A stretch of DNA of 36,406 nt from Bacillota bacterium (GTDB lineage Bacteria > Bacillota > Desulfitobacteriia > Desulfitobacteriales > Desulfitobacteriaceae), in NCBI GenBank assembly GCA_030706025.1, contig JAUZPJ010000003.1:1-36406 (forward strand), read 5' to 3'. Positions 12,875 to 35,970 of the stretch are shown here, one piece after another. How positions within the stretch are numbered: the first letter of the stretch is position 1; every line of letters starts with the position of its first letter. The notes below the pieces were generated by a model. That model was not told where the DNA came from, did not search any database, and saw nothing but the letters and a program-made list of their open reading frames with translations. Position numbers and translations under genes: made by a program.

Positions 12875-12918
12875 TATTATAAATTTTAATTTTCAAAGTT
12901 GTACAGTTGGAGGAAGAT

Positions 12919-15900
12919 ATGAGTGCAATCTTAAATATTGGACTGGATGTTGGATCTACAACGGTAAAAGTTGTGGTTTTAGATACTAATAAAACTATTA
13001 TTTACAAAAAATATTTGAGACATTTTTCTAATATCAAAAATACTGTCGTAATGATGCTTGAGGATGCCAAATCGATCATTCAGGGACATTTGTTAACCCT
13101 TATGGTGACAGGATCTGGCGGATATAATATTTCCCAAAAGTTAGAGGTTCCATTTATTCAAGAGGTTATTGCTTGTACAAATGCCATTAAAATGGTTATA
13201 CCCAAAACGGATGCAGCCATTGAACTTGGCGGTGAAGATGCTAAAATTACCTATTTCGGTGAATCTGTTGAACAAAGAATGAATGGAACGTGTGCTGGGG
13301 GGACGGGTGCATTTATTGACCAAATGGCGACCTTGCTGCAAACCGATGCGCCCGGTCTTAATGAGCTTGCCAAAAACTACCATACTATTTACCCAATTGC
13401 TTCAAGGTGTGGTGTCTTTGCCAAAACAGATGTTCAACCTTTGCTTAATGAGGGGGCCGCTAAGGAAGATATTGCGGTGTCCGTATTGCAGGCGGTTGTG
13501 AATCAAACAATCAGCGGACTGGCCCAAGGACGTCCGATTAGTGGAAATGTGGCATTTTTAGGGGGCCCTTTGCATTTTATGTCCGAACTAAGACATCGCT
13601 TTATCCAGACTTTGTCTTTAGATAACAATAATGTAATCTTTCCTGAAGACTCACAATTTTTTGTGGCTATTGGAGCCGCGTTATCTTCACGCGATAAGGT
13701 GCCGTTTACACTAGAGTGTCTTTACGAACGAACCCCCATGATTTATGACATTAGTGATACGGAGGGTGGAAAATCTGAAGTTTTATTTGCTAATGATGAG
13801 GAATATCGAGACTTTAAAGCAAGACATAACTTGCATAAAGTTGGCAGAGTAGATCTCAAAAGCTATTCCGGGAATGCATATTTAGGAATTGATGCTGGGT
13901 CGACGACCACTAAGGTTGCGCTAGTTAACGATCAAGGTGAGCTATTGTATTCACACTATGGAAGCAATAAGGGCAACCCTTTAGAATCCACCATTGAAGC
14001 AATGAAAACTTTGTATGGAAAACTCAATCACGAGACTAGTATTGTCAATTCTACCGTCACTGGTTATGGAGAACACTTGATAAAAGCGGCTTTGAAAGTT
14101 GATATTGGGGAGATTGAAACAGTTGCTCATTATACAGCGGCTAACTTTTTTAGACCGGGAGTCGACTTTGTCTTAGACATCGGTGGACAAGACATGAAAA
14201 GTTTGGTGATTAAAGATGGAGTGATTGAATCCATTACCTTAAATGAAGCCTGTTCAGCTGGGTGTGGATCCTTTGTGGAAACTTTCGCAAATTCTCTTAA
14301 CTTAGAAGTCGAAGAATTTGCGCGCTTGAGTCAAGGATCTCGGCATCCCGTTGACCTGGGAACTCGTTGTACCGTTTTTATGAATTCTAAAGTAAAACAA
14401 GCACAAAAGGAAGGGGCTGAGGTCAGCGATCTTTCAGCGGGGATTGCTATTTCAGTTATTAAAAACGCTCTTTTTAAAGTGATACGCTTAAGAAGTGCTG
14501 AACACCTCGGCAACAAGATTGTTGTGCAGGGGGGAACCTTTTACAACGATGCCGTCCTGCGGGCCTTCGAGAAAATTGCCAATCAGGAAGTGGTCCGCCC
14601 TGATATTGCTGGCATCATGGGGGCGTTTGGAGCAGCTTTGATTGCCAGAGACCGTTATAAAGTAGGGTATCATTCAGGCCTTTTGCCTGTGGACGATCTA
14701 TTAGATTTTAAAACTCAGACATCGACCAAACGGTGCGGACTGTGTGGTAATAACTGTCTGGTGAGTATCAAACAATTCTCAGGCGGAAGTGAATATATTT
14801 CCGGAAATCGCTGTGAAAGAGGGGCTGGGAAAGAGGTTATTAATCGGGGGACTCCCAACCTCTATGATTATAAGTATAAACGAGTCTTTAACTATAAGCC
14901 CTTGACTGAAGAAAAGGCTATGCGAGGTACAATTGGTATTCCACGAGTTCTCAATATTTATGAGGATTACCCATTCTGGTTCACATTGTTTACAGAGCTC
15001 GGTTACCGAGTGGTTATTTCGGGCCGCTCCTCAAAACAACTCTATGAGCTGGGGATGGATACGATTCCGTCAGAATCTGCTTGTTACCCTGCAAAACTTG
15101 TCCATGGTCATATCAATTATTTAATTAAAAAAGGGATTAGAAAGATTTTTTATCCTTGTATTCCTTATGTACCACAAGAAGATCCTAAGGCTGACAACCA
15201 CTATAATTGTCCTGTAGTCACTTCCTACCCAGAAACCATCAATGCGAACATGGACTGTCTTCGTGAGCCAGATGTAAGGTTTTATCACCCGTTTCTGCCA
15301 CTGGATATGCCAAGCAGAATGGTCAAACGATTGTTTGAAGAGTTGGAGCCCGAGGAAATTCCCAAGCATGAGTTTGCCGATGCCCTGAAAAAAGCCTATG
15401 CGGAACAGGAGCGGTATAAAGAAGACGTTAGACTTAAAGGGGAAGAAGCCCTGCGCTATATTCATGAAAACAAGATAAAAGGCATTGTACTCGTGGGTAG
15501 ACCATATCATATTGATCCAGAAATTAACCACGGTATCCCAGAGATGATAGGGTCCTATGGCTTTGCCATTTTATCCGAGGATTCAATCCGGCATCTGGGC
15601 GAAATCGAAAATCCTTTACGGGTTGTCAATCAGTGGGTATATCACTCAAGGGAGTATTCTGCGGCGAGCTACGTTGCGCAACAGAAGGATTTGGAGATTA
15701 TTCAGCTAAACTCGTTCGGCTGTGGTCTTGATGCCGTTACAACTGATCAGATTAAAGAGATCTTGGACCCTTATGGTAAAATTTATACCGTCTTAAAAAT
15801 TGATGAAATTAACAATTTGGGGGCTGCTAGAATACGGTTGCGCTCCTTGATTGCGGCCATTAACGAACGTGACAAGAAAAACTTTACTCCTAAGAAACTT

Positions 15901-17229
15901 TATGAGAAACCGCAAAAGGTTTTATTTACTAAAGAGATGAAAAAAACACACACGATTTTGGTGCCCCAGATGTCTCCCATTCATTTTCAATTTTTTAAAA
16001 CAGCGTTTATGAACGATGGGTATAATATTGAAGTTTTGCCTTCAGTTGACAAGTCTGCTATTGATGAAGGATTAAGATATGTGCATAATGACGCCTGTTA
16101 TCCTGCTATCATTGTCGTTGGGCAGTTAATGAAAGCCCTGAAATCAGGGATGTATGATTTACACTCCACTTCTGTCATTATTTCTCAAACTGGTGGAGGA
16201 TGCCGAGCTACGAACTATATCGCATTTATCCGAAAAGCTTTACGTGATGCTAATATGGAACGGGTCCCGGTGATTGCCATTAATACAGGGACATCATCTA
16301 ATTTAGAAAACAATCCAGGTTTCAAACTTACCCTCTCGATTTTCAACAAGTTGATGAGAGGACTAATTTATGGGGATCTCCTCATGAGAGTGCTCTATCG
16401 CGTTCGTCCCTACGAGAAAGTACCCGGTTCCGCTAACCAGTTATATGTTTCCTGGGTTCAACGCTGTCAAGAATCATTAAAGGATGGGAATAAGAAGGAC
16501 TTCCATGAAAATGTTCGCCGGATTGTCAAGGACTTTGATGCTTTAGAACTACATGAAGATATGGTGAAACCAAAAGTTGGGGTTGTCGGTGAGATCCTCG
16601 TTAAGTTCCATCCCACAGCGAATAATAACATTGTGGAATTGTTAGAAGCAGAAGGGGCTGAAGCTGTTGTACCCGACCTTGCTGATTTTCTCTTATACGG
16701 TGCCTTTGATAATAGTATTAAGTACGAGAAGTTATCAGGAAGTTTTTGGGGTATGGTGTCTGGCAAACTTTCCGTTAATAGAATTGAATCGTATCGCAAA
16801 GAGATGAAGAAGGCTTTAAGTGCCAGTAAACGATTTGGAGCACCCAAACCCATTTCGGAGATCGCTAAATATGCTCAACAGCATCTTTCGTTGGCCAACC
16901 AATCGGGAGAGGGTTGGTTTCTAACGGGTGAGATGGTTGAGTTAATTCGCAGCGGAGTGAATAACATCGTCTGCTTACAACCATTTGCCTGCTTGCCAAA
17001 CCATATTACGGGAAAAGGGATGTTTCGTGAGCTAAGACGATCTTATCCCGCGGCCAATATCGCCCCGATCGACTATGATCCAGGAGCTAGTGAAGTCAAT
17101 CAGTTAAATCGAATTAAGCTGATGCTTTCCGTGGCCATGGAAAATTTGCATAAAACAGTGAACTCAAAACTGGTAGAGGCTAAGTTGGAGAATGTTTATA
17201 TTAAACGTAAACAGGGGCTTAACCTATAG
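12919..17229 (+). CDS. 2-hydroxyacyl-CoA dehydratase activase-type fusion (two BadF/BcrA-type ASKHA modules plus DUF2229/HgdB-like C-terminal regions)
   Basis: Two ASKHA modules: [17 protein letters not shown]...[10 protein letters not shown]...[16 protein letters not shown] and [16 protein letters not shown]...[10 protein letters not shown]...[16 protein letters not shown]; long C-terminal region with [12 protein letters not shown] and [15 protein letters not shown]. Confidence 0.92.
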
Positions 17230-19204: not shown

Positions 19205-19421
19205 GTCATTAGGATCTATTTTAGAGAAGCTTCTTTAGTTAGAGGGGGAAAAAGAGAAGAATGTAAGGAGTGAGAAAATAGCAATAATTATAATCACTTT
19301 GGCGCCTTAAATTTATGGGAATTCACACAACTCGGAAAGTTGGATATTGCCTCTGAAATAGTGGCCCGTGAGGCCAAACAATTCACGAAAATCAGCGAAT
19401 AAAAAAAGGAGGTATGGATAT

Positions 19422-20396
19422 ATGAGCAGACCCCAAAAAGTTAGTTTGGCAGAAGCTATCAGCCTAATTAGCGATGGCGATATGCTAACATTTAGCGGAT
19501 TTACCATCTGGCGTCGCCCGATGGCGGCCATCATGGAACTCATTCGGCAGGGTAAGAAGAACCTTCATTTGGTAGAGGTTAACGGCGGGACTCATAGTGA
19601 TATGCTGATCGGAGCCGGTTGTGTAAAGATATGGGAGTCTTGTTGGAATGGTCATGAATTGTATGGCAAGATTGCTGGAAATATGTCTCGCAAAGTTGAA
19701 ACGGGCGAGTTAATTATTGAAGATTACAGCCATGTGCAGATGCTACATCGCCTAGTGGCAGGTTCTCAAGGAATACCGTTTATGCCTACGTATGCTGCGA
19801 TGGGTTCCGATATATTAAATCCTGAATACGATATGCTAGGTAAAGCTGGACTTCGGGATGGATCTAATCCCAAAATACCGGCTAAAAAATATGAAATGTA
19901 CAAAGAAAACTTTACCGGAAATGAAGTGTGCCTAATTCCAGCAGCTCAGCCCAACTGGTGTATCGCCCATGTTAATATGGTGGGTTCAGAGGGAACCGTT
20001 CGCGTGATGGGACAAAAGTACAGTGATGAAGAGGCGATGAAATCAGCTGACAAGTTAATCGTCATTACTGAGCAGATCGTCCCGGAAGAATACATCCGTC
20101 GTGAGCCGGAAAGGAACCTTATTCCGCCTCACCTGGTTGACTATATTGTGGAGTTGCCTTGGGGAGCACATCCTACAGGATGTTTTGGCTCTTATGAGAC
20201 AGACGGAGCTTTCATCAATAATTTCTTTACTAAAACTCGTACACAGGAAGGTTTTGATGAGTGGGCCAAAGAATGGATCTTCGGAGTTGCCGATCATGAG
20301 GAATATCTCAACAAGCTAGGTGTAAGCCGCCTGGAAACTTTGAAAGCTAGTGCTGCTCTAGGTTATTCCACCAAAGTGAAAAGGGGGTCGAGATAA
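19422..20396 (+). CDS. CoA-transferase subunit A (glutaconate CoA-transferase A-like)
   Basis: VSLAEAISLISDGDMLTFSGFTIWRRPMAAIMELIR...AGSQGIPFMPTYAAMGSD; AAAGGAGG RBS before ATG 19422. Confidence 0.88.
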   Translation: MSRPQKVSLAEAISLISDGDMLTFSGFTIWRRPMAAIMELIRQGKKNLHLVEVNGGTHSDMLIGAGCVKIWESCWNGHELYGKIAGNMSRKVETGELIIEDYSHVQMLHRLVAGSQGIPFMPTYAAMGSDILNPEYDMLGKAGLRDGSNPKIPAKKYEMYKENFTGNEVCLIPAAQPNWCIAHVNMVGSEGTVRVMGQKYSDEEAMKSADKLIVITEQIVPEEYIRREPERNLIPPHLVDYIVELPWGAHPTGCFGSYETDGAFINNFFTKTRTQEGFDEWAKEWIFGVADHEEYLNKLGVSRLETLKASAALGYSTKVKRGSR

Positions 20397-21202
20397 TGGC
20401 TAGTAATGATTATGCAAAAGTCGGAGAATTTAAACCAATCGACCTTCTGGCTGTATCTGCGGCAAGGGAAGTTACTGACGGGGAAGTCGTTTTTGCCGGA
20501 ACCGGATTGCCCATGCTGGCTATCATGCTAGCCCAACATACCACTGCGCCTAACGCAGTATGTATATATGAAGCAGGCAGTGTAGACGGCAGGCCCATAT
20601 CTCTGCCTACCTCCGTAGGAGATGCGCGCTGTATATATCAAGCTTCGATCGCTTCTGGTCTATATGACGTTTTTGGGCAACTACAAAGAGGAAATGTAGA
20701 TATGGCTTTTCTAGGCGGTGCAGAAATTGATCAGTATGGCAGTGTCAATACCACCGCCATGGGTGGCTACTCCCCAATCGGCAAACGTTTGACGGGTAGC
20801 GGCGGAAACGCTGACATCAATGCTCTCGCCAAACGAACCGTATTCATTATGATTCAGGAGAAAAGACGGTTTGTAGAACGCTGCAGCTATATCACTTCTC
20901 CAGGATGGAGAATCCCTAAGTGGCCTAGTGGTGAATTTGTCCATAAAAAAGAGGTTTACGGCAGTGCTTTCCGAGGTGGCCCCTGGGCTGTAATATCTAA
21001 TATGGGTGTCTACCATTTTGATGATGATGGAATAATATACCTCGATACAGTTCATCCTGGTTTTACCCCTGAACAGGTGAAAGAGAATTGCAGCTTTGAC
21101 TTGAATATATCTAGGGTGACCGGAGAAACAAAACCTCCTACTTACAATGAGTTGGAATTACTTTACAAGACGGTTGACCCTGAAGGCATATTCCTGCCTT
21201 AA
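20396..21202 (+). CDS. CoA-transferase subunit B (glutaconate CoA-transferase B-like)
   Basis: DGEVVFAGTGLPMLAIMLAQHTTAPNAVCIYEAGSVD...DMAFLGGAEIDQYGSVNTTAMG; overlaps subunit A stop. Confidence 0.88.
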   Translation: MASNDYAKVGEFKPIDLLAVSAAREVTDGEVVFAGTGLPMLAIMLAQHTTAPNAVCIYEAGSVDGRPISLPTSVGDARCIYQASIASGLYDVFGQLQRGNVDMAFLGGAEIDQYGSVNTTAMGGYSPIGKRLTGSGGNADINALAKRTVFIMIQEKRRFVERCSYITSPGWRIPKWPSGEFVHKKEVYGSAFRGGPWAVISNMGVYHFDDDGIIYLDTVHPGFTPEQVKENCSFDLNISRVTGETKPPTYNELELLYKTVDPEGIFLP

Positions 21203-34168: not shown

Positions 34169-34423
34169 AATGAACACCTCATTTAGATGGCTTTTATTCC
34201 GGAAAGTATAACATGGTAACTTTTAACTTTCAATATCAGATTGTTATCGGAGCAAATAAGGGGATAGGCATCTTGTGATATTAATTATTGCGTTTTACTA
34301 AAAGTATCTCTAAAGTAAAATGTTAGCAGAAAATTCTAACTAGTAGGAAAAGGGGGGGATATGTCGAATAGCTAACAAGGAAGATGTAAGTAGAAGTTTG
34401 TTAGACGAGGAGGGGTAGCTAAA

Positions 34424-35245
34424 ATGTTAAGTAGAGTAAAGACAATGTCTGAAGCTGTTCGATTAGTGCAGGATTCGCAAATGCTCGCAGTCGGTGGCAA
34501 TGCTTTACATCGGACCCCCGCTGCTTTCTGTCACGAACTGGCGAAGCTGGAGCGAAAGGAACTAAAAGGTGTGGGGGCTGCTCCGGGTTACGCTATGGAT
34601 GTTCTCTGCGCATCGGGGAGTATTTCAGAGGTGTTTTTTGGTTTTTTTGGATTTGAAAATGAGTATGGTTTAGCTCCGGGTATGCGTAAAGGTATTCAAG
34701 AAGGGTTGATTAAAGCTATAGAGGGTTCGTGAACAGCAATCATCAATGCTCTCCGTGCGGGAGCTTATGGGATTCCGTTTATGGGTGTAGGAGGCTTGTG
34801 GGGTAGTGACCTAATCGCTCAGCGCCCGGAATTTTTCCAAGTGATGAAGAGTCCATTCTCCGATGAGGAGGTTGTAACCGTCAAGGCTTTACGCCCTGAT
34901 TGGGCGATCATCCATGTTCAAGAAGCAGATCAGTATGGCAACGCTCGGATCCTCGGCTCGGATTTCCAAGATGTGCTGCTTAGCCGAGCTGCCAAGAAAA
35001 CAATCATTACCACGGAGAAACTTGTGGAAACCCAAACTTTCCAGCAAGAACCTAAACTGACCTCTATACCCTATTTTTTAGTAGAAGCTGTTGTTGAAGC
35101 ACCGGGAGGAGCTAAACCAGGAATTTGCTTCCCAAACTATAAGACGGTCGATGATACGGGCATGAAAGCGTATGGTCAAGCCATTAAAGAATGTAAGTTC
35201 AACGAGTACCTGACCAAAGTTATAGAAGAGAGGGACGCAAAATGA
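34424..35245 (+). CDS. CoA-transferase subunit A, interrupted by a single in-frame UGA at 34730-34732 (candidate selenocysteine codon, otherwise nonsense mutation)
   Basis: ORF 34424-34732 and ORF 34781-35245 are in the same frame; read-through gives ...GIQEGLIKAIEGS(U)TAIINALRAGAYGIPFMGVGGLWGSDLIAQ..., colinear with the subunit-A paralog at 19422; ATGA overlap with subunit B retained. Confidence 0.75.
34748..34764 (+). promoter_or_regulatory. candidate bacterial SECIS-like hairpin downstream of the UGA
   Basis: GCUCUC-CGUGC-GGGAGC: 6-bp stem (one G-U), 5-nt loop with G at second position; loop begins 21 nt after the UGA. Confidence 0.45.
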
Positions 35246-35970
35246 AATACGGACCTGCCGAAATGATGGTCATTGCTCTTGCACGAGAAATTATAAAGAG
35301 TGATCTTGTTTTCCACGGTTTGGCATCGCCCGTACCAATGACAGCGATGAAGCTTGCGAAAGCGTTAGGCACTGATTTTACATATATTAATATAACAGGT
35401 GGGGTTGACCCAGATTGGCATAAACCGGCGGTTGTTGGTTCTACCCTTTCACAAAACTTATATGAAGGAGGAGTAGCTAATTTTGGCTTGGAGGAAATCT
35501 TTGATTTAGCTTGTAATGGTCGAGTCGACATTTCAATGTTAAGCTTAGTGCAGATAAGTCCGAGGGGCGAGATTAATATGTCCTTTGTGGGCGGAGACTA
35601 CGATAAGCCAAAGGTGAGATTGCCTGGAGGAGCTGGCAGTGCCACTTTAATACCAGTGACTAAGAAATCATTGATATGGAAGACCAAGCATGATTTAAAG
35701 TCATTTGTTTCAGATGTTGCTTTTTGTACCGCTAAAGCCAATCCCAATAATCAGTTTAGAGTAATTACTAATTTATGTATATTTTCTTTGAAAGACAATC
35801 GGTTGGAAGTGGAAAGTATCCATCCCTATTCGAGCTTAGAGGAAGTAAAGTCGAATACCGGATGGGAAATTACTCAAGAGAATCTACCATACACTGACGC
35901 CCCGTCGGAGCTAGAGTTGGCTTTGATCGAAGAGGTTGACCCCAATCGTATACGCTACATTGAGTTCTAA
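35242..35970 (+). CDS. CoA-transferase subunit B
   Basis: DLVFHGLASPVPMTAMKLAKALGTDFTYINITGGVDPDW...GRVDISMLSLVQISPRGEINMSFVGGDYDKPKVRLPGGAGSATLIP; ATGA overlap with subunit A. Confidence 0.88.
   Translation: MKYGPAEMMVIALAREIIKSDLVFHGLASPVPMTAMKLAKALGTDFTYINITGGVDPDWHKPAVVGSTLSQNLYEGGVANFGLEEIFDLACNGRVDISMLSLVQISPRGEINMSFVGGDYDKPKVRLPGGAGSATLIPVTKKSLIWKTKHDLKSFVSDVAFCTAKANPNNQFRVITNLCIFSLKDNRLEVESIHPYSSLEEVKSNTGWEITQENLPYTDAPSELELALIEEVDPNRIRYIEF

Follow-up and report, generated by a model that had tools for sequence, protein, structure and literature searches.

The question raised by this locus is whether a subunit A gene of CoA-transferase type that is interrupted by an in-frame UGA is simply broken, or is read through to give a full-length protein. 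The window, which is the whole stretch of DNA analysed here, comprises 36,406 nucleotides of contig JAUZPJ010000003.1, and its relevant features are listed in Table 1. Two open reading frames (34424-34732 and 34781-35245) share a frame and are separated by a single UGA, as the preliminary description reported; this UGA is the sole stop between the first ATG and the true stop, TGA, at 35243-35245, and the two frames are one 273-codon gene with UGA at codon 103. The putative ribosome binding site GAGGAGGGG lies 8 nt upstream of the ATG, and the stop overlaps the start of the subunit B gene (ATGA), again as first described. The read-through protein matches Pfam CoA_trans once, at full length (residues 6-226, E=2e-22), and its AlphaFold2 (AF2) model has a pLDDT of 89.7, with GctA, IpdA and AibA as the nearest PDB folds (TMq 0.85-0.89); in this model helix 103-115 begins with residue 103. 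As set out below, the gene apparently broken by a stop very probably encodes a previously uncatalogued selenium-containing enzyme.

Table 1. Features of the window referred to in the text.
Feature	Position	Strand	Basis or remark
Probable ribosome binding site of subunit A gene	34407..34415	+	Sequence
GctA/AibA/IpdA-like subunit A, 273 aa, almost certainly Sec-containing	34424..35245	+	Read-through, Pfam match, model, dN/dS
UGA codon 103, almost certainly read as selenocysteine	34730..34732	+	Same-column UGA in 39 homologues, Cys in 7
SECIS-like hairpin	34748..34764	+	Stem 34748-34753 / 34759-34764, loop CGUGC 34754-34758
Subunit B, 242 aa, AibB-like	35242..35970	+	Ile51 (35392-35394) at catalytic-Glu place of GctB-type subunits
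Paralogous conventional CoA-transferase subunit A (comparison only)	19368..20396	+	His at Sec column
Paralogous subunit B (comparison only)	20396..21202	+	Catalytic-Glu motif YEAG

The UGA might reflect a nonsense mutation, a pseudogene or an assembly error in one metagenome-assembled genome, and the window's genome is indeed fragmented (3.19 Mb in 511 contigs, 79.7% complete). However, all 39 UGA-bearing homologues found have the codon at exactly the same alignment column as codon 103, that of the isolate Desulfosporosinus metallidurans (91% identical), of the same genus as the window's genome, among them, and seven other homologues have Cys there. Since neither a sequencing error nor a nonsense mutation could strike the same column in 39 genes, this alternative, which the preliminary description had left standing, is refuted, and we give the broader reading of a defect in one genome essentially no weight. 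Purifying selection also argues against it, being equal on either side of the UGA at a dN/dS of about 0.08: for the window and three congeners the values are 0.09-0.11 before the UGA and 0.07-0.10 after it, and for six pairs in the genus 0.05-0.11 and 0.07-0.13, respectively.

The UGA homologues span at least two phyla, with identity measured down to 41% and relationships beyond that recognised by profile. Protein searches gave homologues whose frame also contains a TGA, their identities being 91, 83, 82, 61, 43, 41 and 41%, wider profile searches gave 29 distinct UGA sequences and six with Cys (TGC or TGT) at the Sec column, and a later search in the phylum of genome G071 added ten with UGA, all at the same column, and one with Cys. 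Among sequences scoring above approximately 250 bits to the family profile, only UGA or Cys is found at this position. On a 73-row tree two changes suffice for the 39 Sec rows (shuffled mean 24.6), and Sec may have been gained twice in the family. Of the seven Cys rows, five fall together in a single clade nested in the Sec family, which fits a conversion of Sec to Cys; Cys is also seen outside this clade in L146 / L175 (G838) and L109 (G457), so that it possibly arose more than once. We also note that ten genomes in the phylum of G071 (L165-L174) form a second, distant clade of UGA-containing homologues with hairpins of the GGGCUCC-AGG-CUGGAGCC type and different neighbours, and these possibly act on another substrate.

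The hairpin downstream of the UGA is as the preliminary description gave it, with a 6 bp stem (GCUCUC pairing with GGGAGC), a CGUGC loop and 21 nt from UGA to loop. The published bSECIS model has a loop of 3-9 nt with G in the first two positions, 16-37 nt from the UGA, a stem of at least 4 bp and a minimum free energy of at most -7.5 kcal/mol; the loop, distance and stem of the window's hairpin lie within these ranges, as does the 48-nt fold (-10.4 kcal/mol), whereas the isolated hairpin, at -6.9 kcal/mol, falls slightly short. By itself it is unremarkable and not convincing in one sequence: the synonymous-shuffle p is 0.06, 8% of the gene's other codons score as well, and the 61-nt fold around it has z=-1.77. 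Its weight comes from being conserved and covarying across relatives, in which it lies 21-23 nt after the UGA.

In the 24 closest sequences (class 1) the stem columns 19-24/30-35, counting the UGA as 1-3, are paired in 100% of cells, and the covariation score is 0.263, against at most 0.082 when the stem is slid and with 0 of 500 shuffles reaching it. The main compensating columns are 21-33 (UA, CG and GC pairs) and 24-30 (CG, GC, GU, UA and UG), both synonymous third codon positions, and selection on the protein is thus no explanation for the joint changes. All 24 class 1 sequences use CGU for the Arg of the loop, though six codons are possible. A second class of 14 sequences has double changes in five of eight pairs (covariation 0.368 against at most 0.078), and in distant homologues the stem is longer and its register shifted, with compensatory changes again present. 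In the Cys homologues the hairpin is mostly weak or absent, one (L077) reaching -6.2. A search of 34650-34850 against Rfam gave no match, so the hairpin belongs to no known SECIS family.

The machinery for selenocysteine insertion accompanies the UGA. The window's genome contains selA (C42), selB (C390), selC (C465) and selD (C177), the four genes that the preliminary description had proposed looking for. SelB is above the curated cut-off in 29/29 distinct UGA genomes tested (32 handles before records reached twice were removed, all from the searches that preceded L165-L174), and tRNA-Sec scores 65-81 bits in 19/19 UGA genomes tested and falls under the gathering score in 4/4 Cys or Gly genomes tested. 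No SelB exceeds the cut-off in the Gly genome, the Glu genome G125 or the three Cys genomes from the rumen; three other Cys genomes do have SelB over the cut-off, and Cys is therefore not simply due to loss of SelB. As a separate observation, selD of the window's genome (G000:C177:1619-2546) itself has an in-frame UGA, probably encoding Sec, and its matches are split in two pieces, perhaps by an assembly frameshift.

These findings bear on two further readings of the UGA. It could be a true stop, with subunit A made as two pieces by restarting at the in-frame ATG at 34781, 48 nt past the UGA, or subject to regulated truncation. That ATG, however, lacks a clear ribosome binding site, as was noted at the outset, and encodes Met120 of a GIPFM motif, a residue that is not Met in all relatives; furthermore, seven homologues have Cys in place of the UGA rather than a split gene, and the hairpin covaries and sits at SECIS distance. 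We regard a true stop as extremely improbable. The chance that the UGA codes here for some other residue, whether as Trp or Cys, by near-cognate suppression or under a variant code, is similarly minute: close homologues do have Cys, but UGA ends the same gene, SelB and tRNA-Sec are present in all the UGA genomes tested for them, and the hairpin covaries. The conserved UGA/Cys column, the selABCD genes and the covarying hairpin all support the original Sec interpretation, and comparison of these sequences makes it almost certain that Sec is inserted at codon 103, with SelB and tRNA-Sec predicted to decode the UGA using the hairpin just downstream.

A more complex question is what such a protein does. 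The preliminary description called it a CoA-transferase subunit A, of which the fold stands; the function is probably wrong, since the pair lacks the transferase catalytic Glu. Subunit B has the AibB-like (ASP) insertion, and the catalytic Glu of B is absent in every Sec and Cys pair with a readable B. Among the collected A/B pairs B-Glu is present when the subunit A column is Asn, His or Leu and absent when it is Sec, Cys or Glu, with Gly found in both settings; UGA loci L165, L170 and L172 and Glu locus L177, in which an unrelated ORF was picked as B, were left out of this count. From this pairing of residue states we infer a transfer of the catalytic residue from B to A. In IpdA the Sec column is occupied by Glu105 (MDEG in the wild type and MDAG in the mutant 6coj, the assignment coming from the 6coj title, E105A, and the mutant sequence), in GctA (1poi) by Gln102, and in AtoD by a Gln that aligns with CtfA Gln98, which is reported to lie 2.5 A from bound acetate (PMC12400318). 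Gly is found in AibA and in some relatives that lack B-Glu, and an ionisable residue here is thus not obligatory in the superfamily. L153, L155 and L054 likewise have Gly with a partner lacking the catalytic Glu, as in AibAB, and are possibly decarboxylase-like.

The fold and Pfam family would suit a conventional CoA-transferase that happens to have Sec, but the missing B-Glu, whose replacement by Ser inactivates CtfAB (PMC12400318), makes this very unlikely. We consider it very probable that Sec is inserted in a non-transferase enzyme with the CoA-transferase fold, and from its alignment with relatives of solved structure a catalytic role for Sec103 seems likely.

The neighbourhoods of relatives offer some context. 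In approximately 13 loci the Sec pair adjoins a HdrC-HdrB-HdrA(~345 aa)-HdrC-HdrB cluster, usually accompanied by an MFS transporter and by a conventional CoA-transferase pair in which the Glu is retained, and occasionally by a PrdR-like regulator. The same arrangement, with CoA-transferase genes and an MFS transporter alongside, recurs in L113-L118, L122, L123, L125, L127, L134 and L135; the name sHdr is not used for the cluster because the gene order was not confirmed in the sHdr papers. CoA-disulfide-reductase-like (CoADR-like) genes adjoin the pair in approximately seven loci, the Cys clade included, and the second Sec clade has Liv-type ABC transporter parts and acyl-CoA ligases, as judged from sequence rather than by profile. 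The window and its close relatives have none of these neighbours. Elsewhere in the window, and with no evident link to the Sec gene, positions 12907-17229 encode a 1440-aa protein with repeated sequence that, judged by eye, is activase-like (2-hydroxyacyl-CoA dehydratase activator type). Judged by gene content, the common theme of the neighbourhoods appears to be carboxylate uptake and CoA activation.

One reading of these neighbours is that Sec is inserted for redox chemistry, Sec103 forming a selenylsulfide with a CoA or thiol substrate that Hdr or CoADR-like partners would reduce, and most known selenoproteins are indeed thought to be redox proteins (PMC13188914). We find this possible yet rather doubtful: no resolving Cys is present near Sec103 (no CxxU or UxxC), relatives have Glu at the Sec column, and such neighbours are mostly missing from the second Sec clade and from the close relatives of the window.

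The reading we favour is a CoA-transferase scaffold in which catalysis passed from a residue of B to one of A and Glu gave way to Sec; that this makes up a widespread and uncatalogued selenoenzyme family in which Sec performs non-redox acyl-CoA chemistry (C-C cleavage, hydrolysis or decarboxylation) has about an even chance. To our knowledge, such chemistry is hardly known for selenocysteine. Within the glutaconate CoA-transferase superfamily, subunits A and B would together make an acyl-CoA enzyme of the AibAB/IpdAB type. B having lost its Glu, catalysis would pass to Sec103, which begins the active-site helix of A and occupies the position of Glu105 in IpdA; its selenolate would act on the acyl group of an acyl-CoA, either as a nucleophile or in acid/base catalysis. 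Relatives' neighbourhoods, with a transporter, a conventional CoA-transferase or acyl-CoA ligase and the Sec enzyme, suggest a route in which an imported carboxylate is activated with CoA and passed to the Sec enzyme; a role in carboxylate catabolism has perhaps a one in two chance.

Of the 119 families or subfamilies of prokaryotic selenoproteins catalogued in a review of May 2026, none is a CoA-transferase (PMC13188914), in agreement with the initial remark that this family was not known to contain selenoproteins. No model in NCBIfam release 20 exceeds its cut-off for subunit A, and among open-licence papers we found nothing relevant on a Sec-containing CoA-transferase, though description elsewhere is possible. 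Automatic annotation presumably splits or truncates such genes. The UGA, bSECIS position, exchange of Sec and Cys and co-occurrence with SelB are all as in known bacterial selenoprotein families, but the catalogue would gain a new fold, and the Sec site differs from the thioredoxin-like and other thiol-redox motifs.

Among enzymes of this fold, GctAB (glutaconate CoA-transferase, 1poi) and CtfAB/AtoDA/SCOT share the subunit organisation, but use a Glu of B that is absent here, and GctA, AtoD and CtfA have Gln at the Sec column. AibAB (3-methylglutaconyl-CoA decarboxylase, PDB 5mzw-5n03) provides the closest solved B subunit (AibB, E about 1e-26), with the same ASP insertion and missing catalytic Glu (PMC7756340); it differs in the Gly of AibA, and Cys56 of AibB aligns with Ile51 of the window's subunit B. 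IpdAB (cholesterol ring-cleaving acyl-CoA hydrolase, PDB 6con, 6co6, 6co9 and 6coj) has the same fold (TMq 0.87-0.89) at 23-24% identity, but its actinobacterial steroid context is absent here and Sec or Cys replaces its Glu105. Glu, Sec, Cys and Asn thus form a natural series at one active-site position, coupled to residue loss in the partner subunit, that offers a direct test of why selenium is used.
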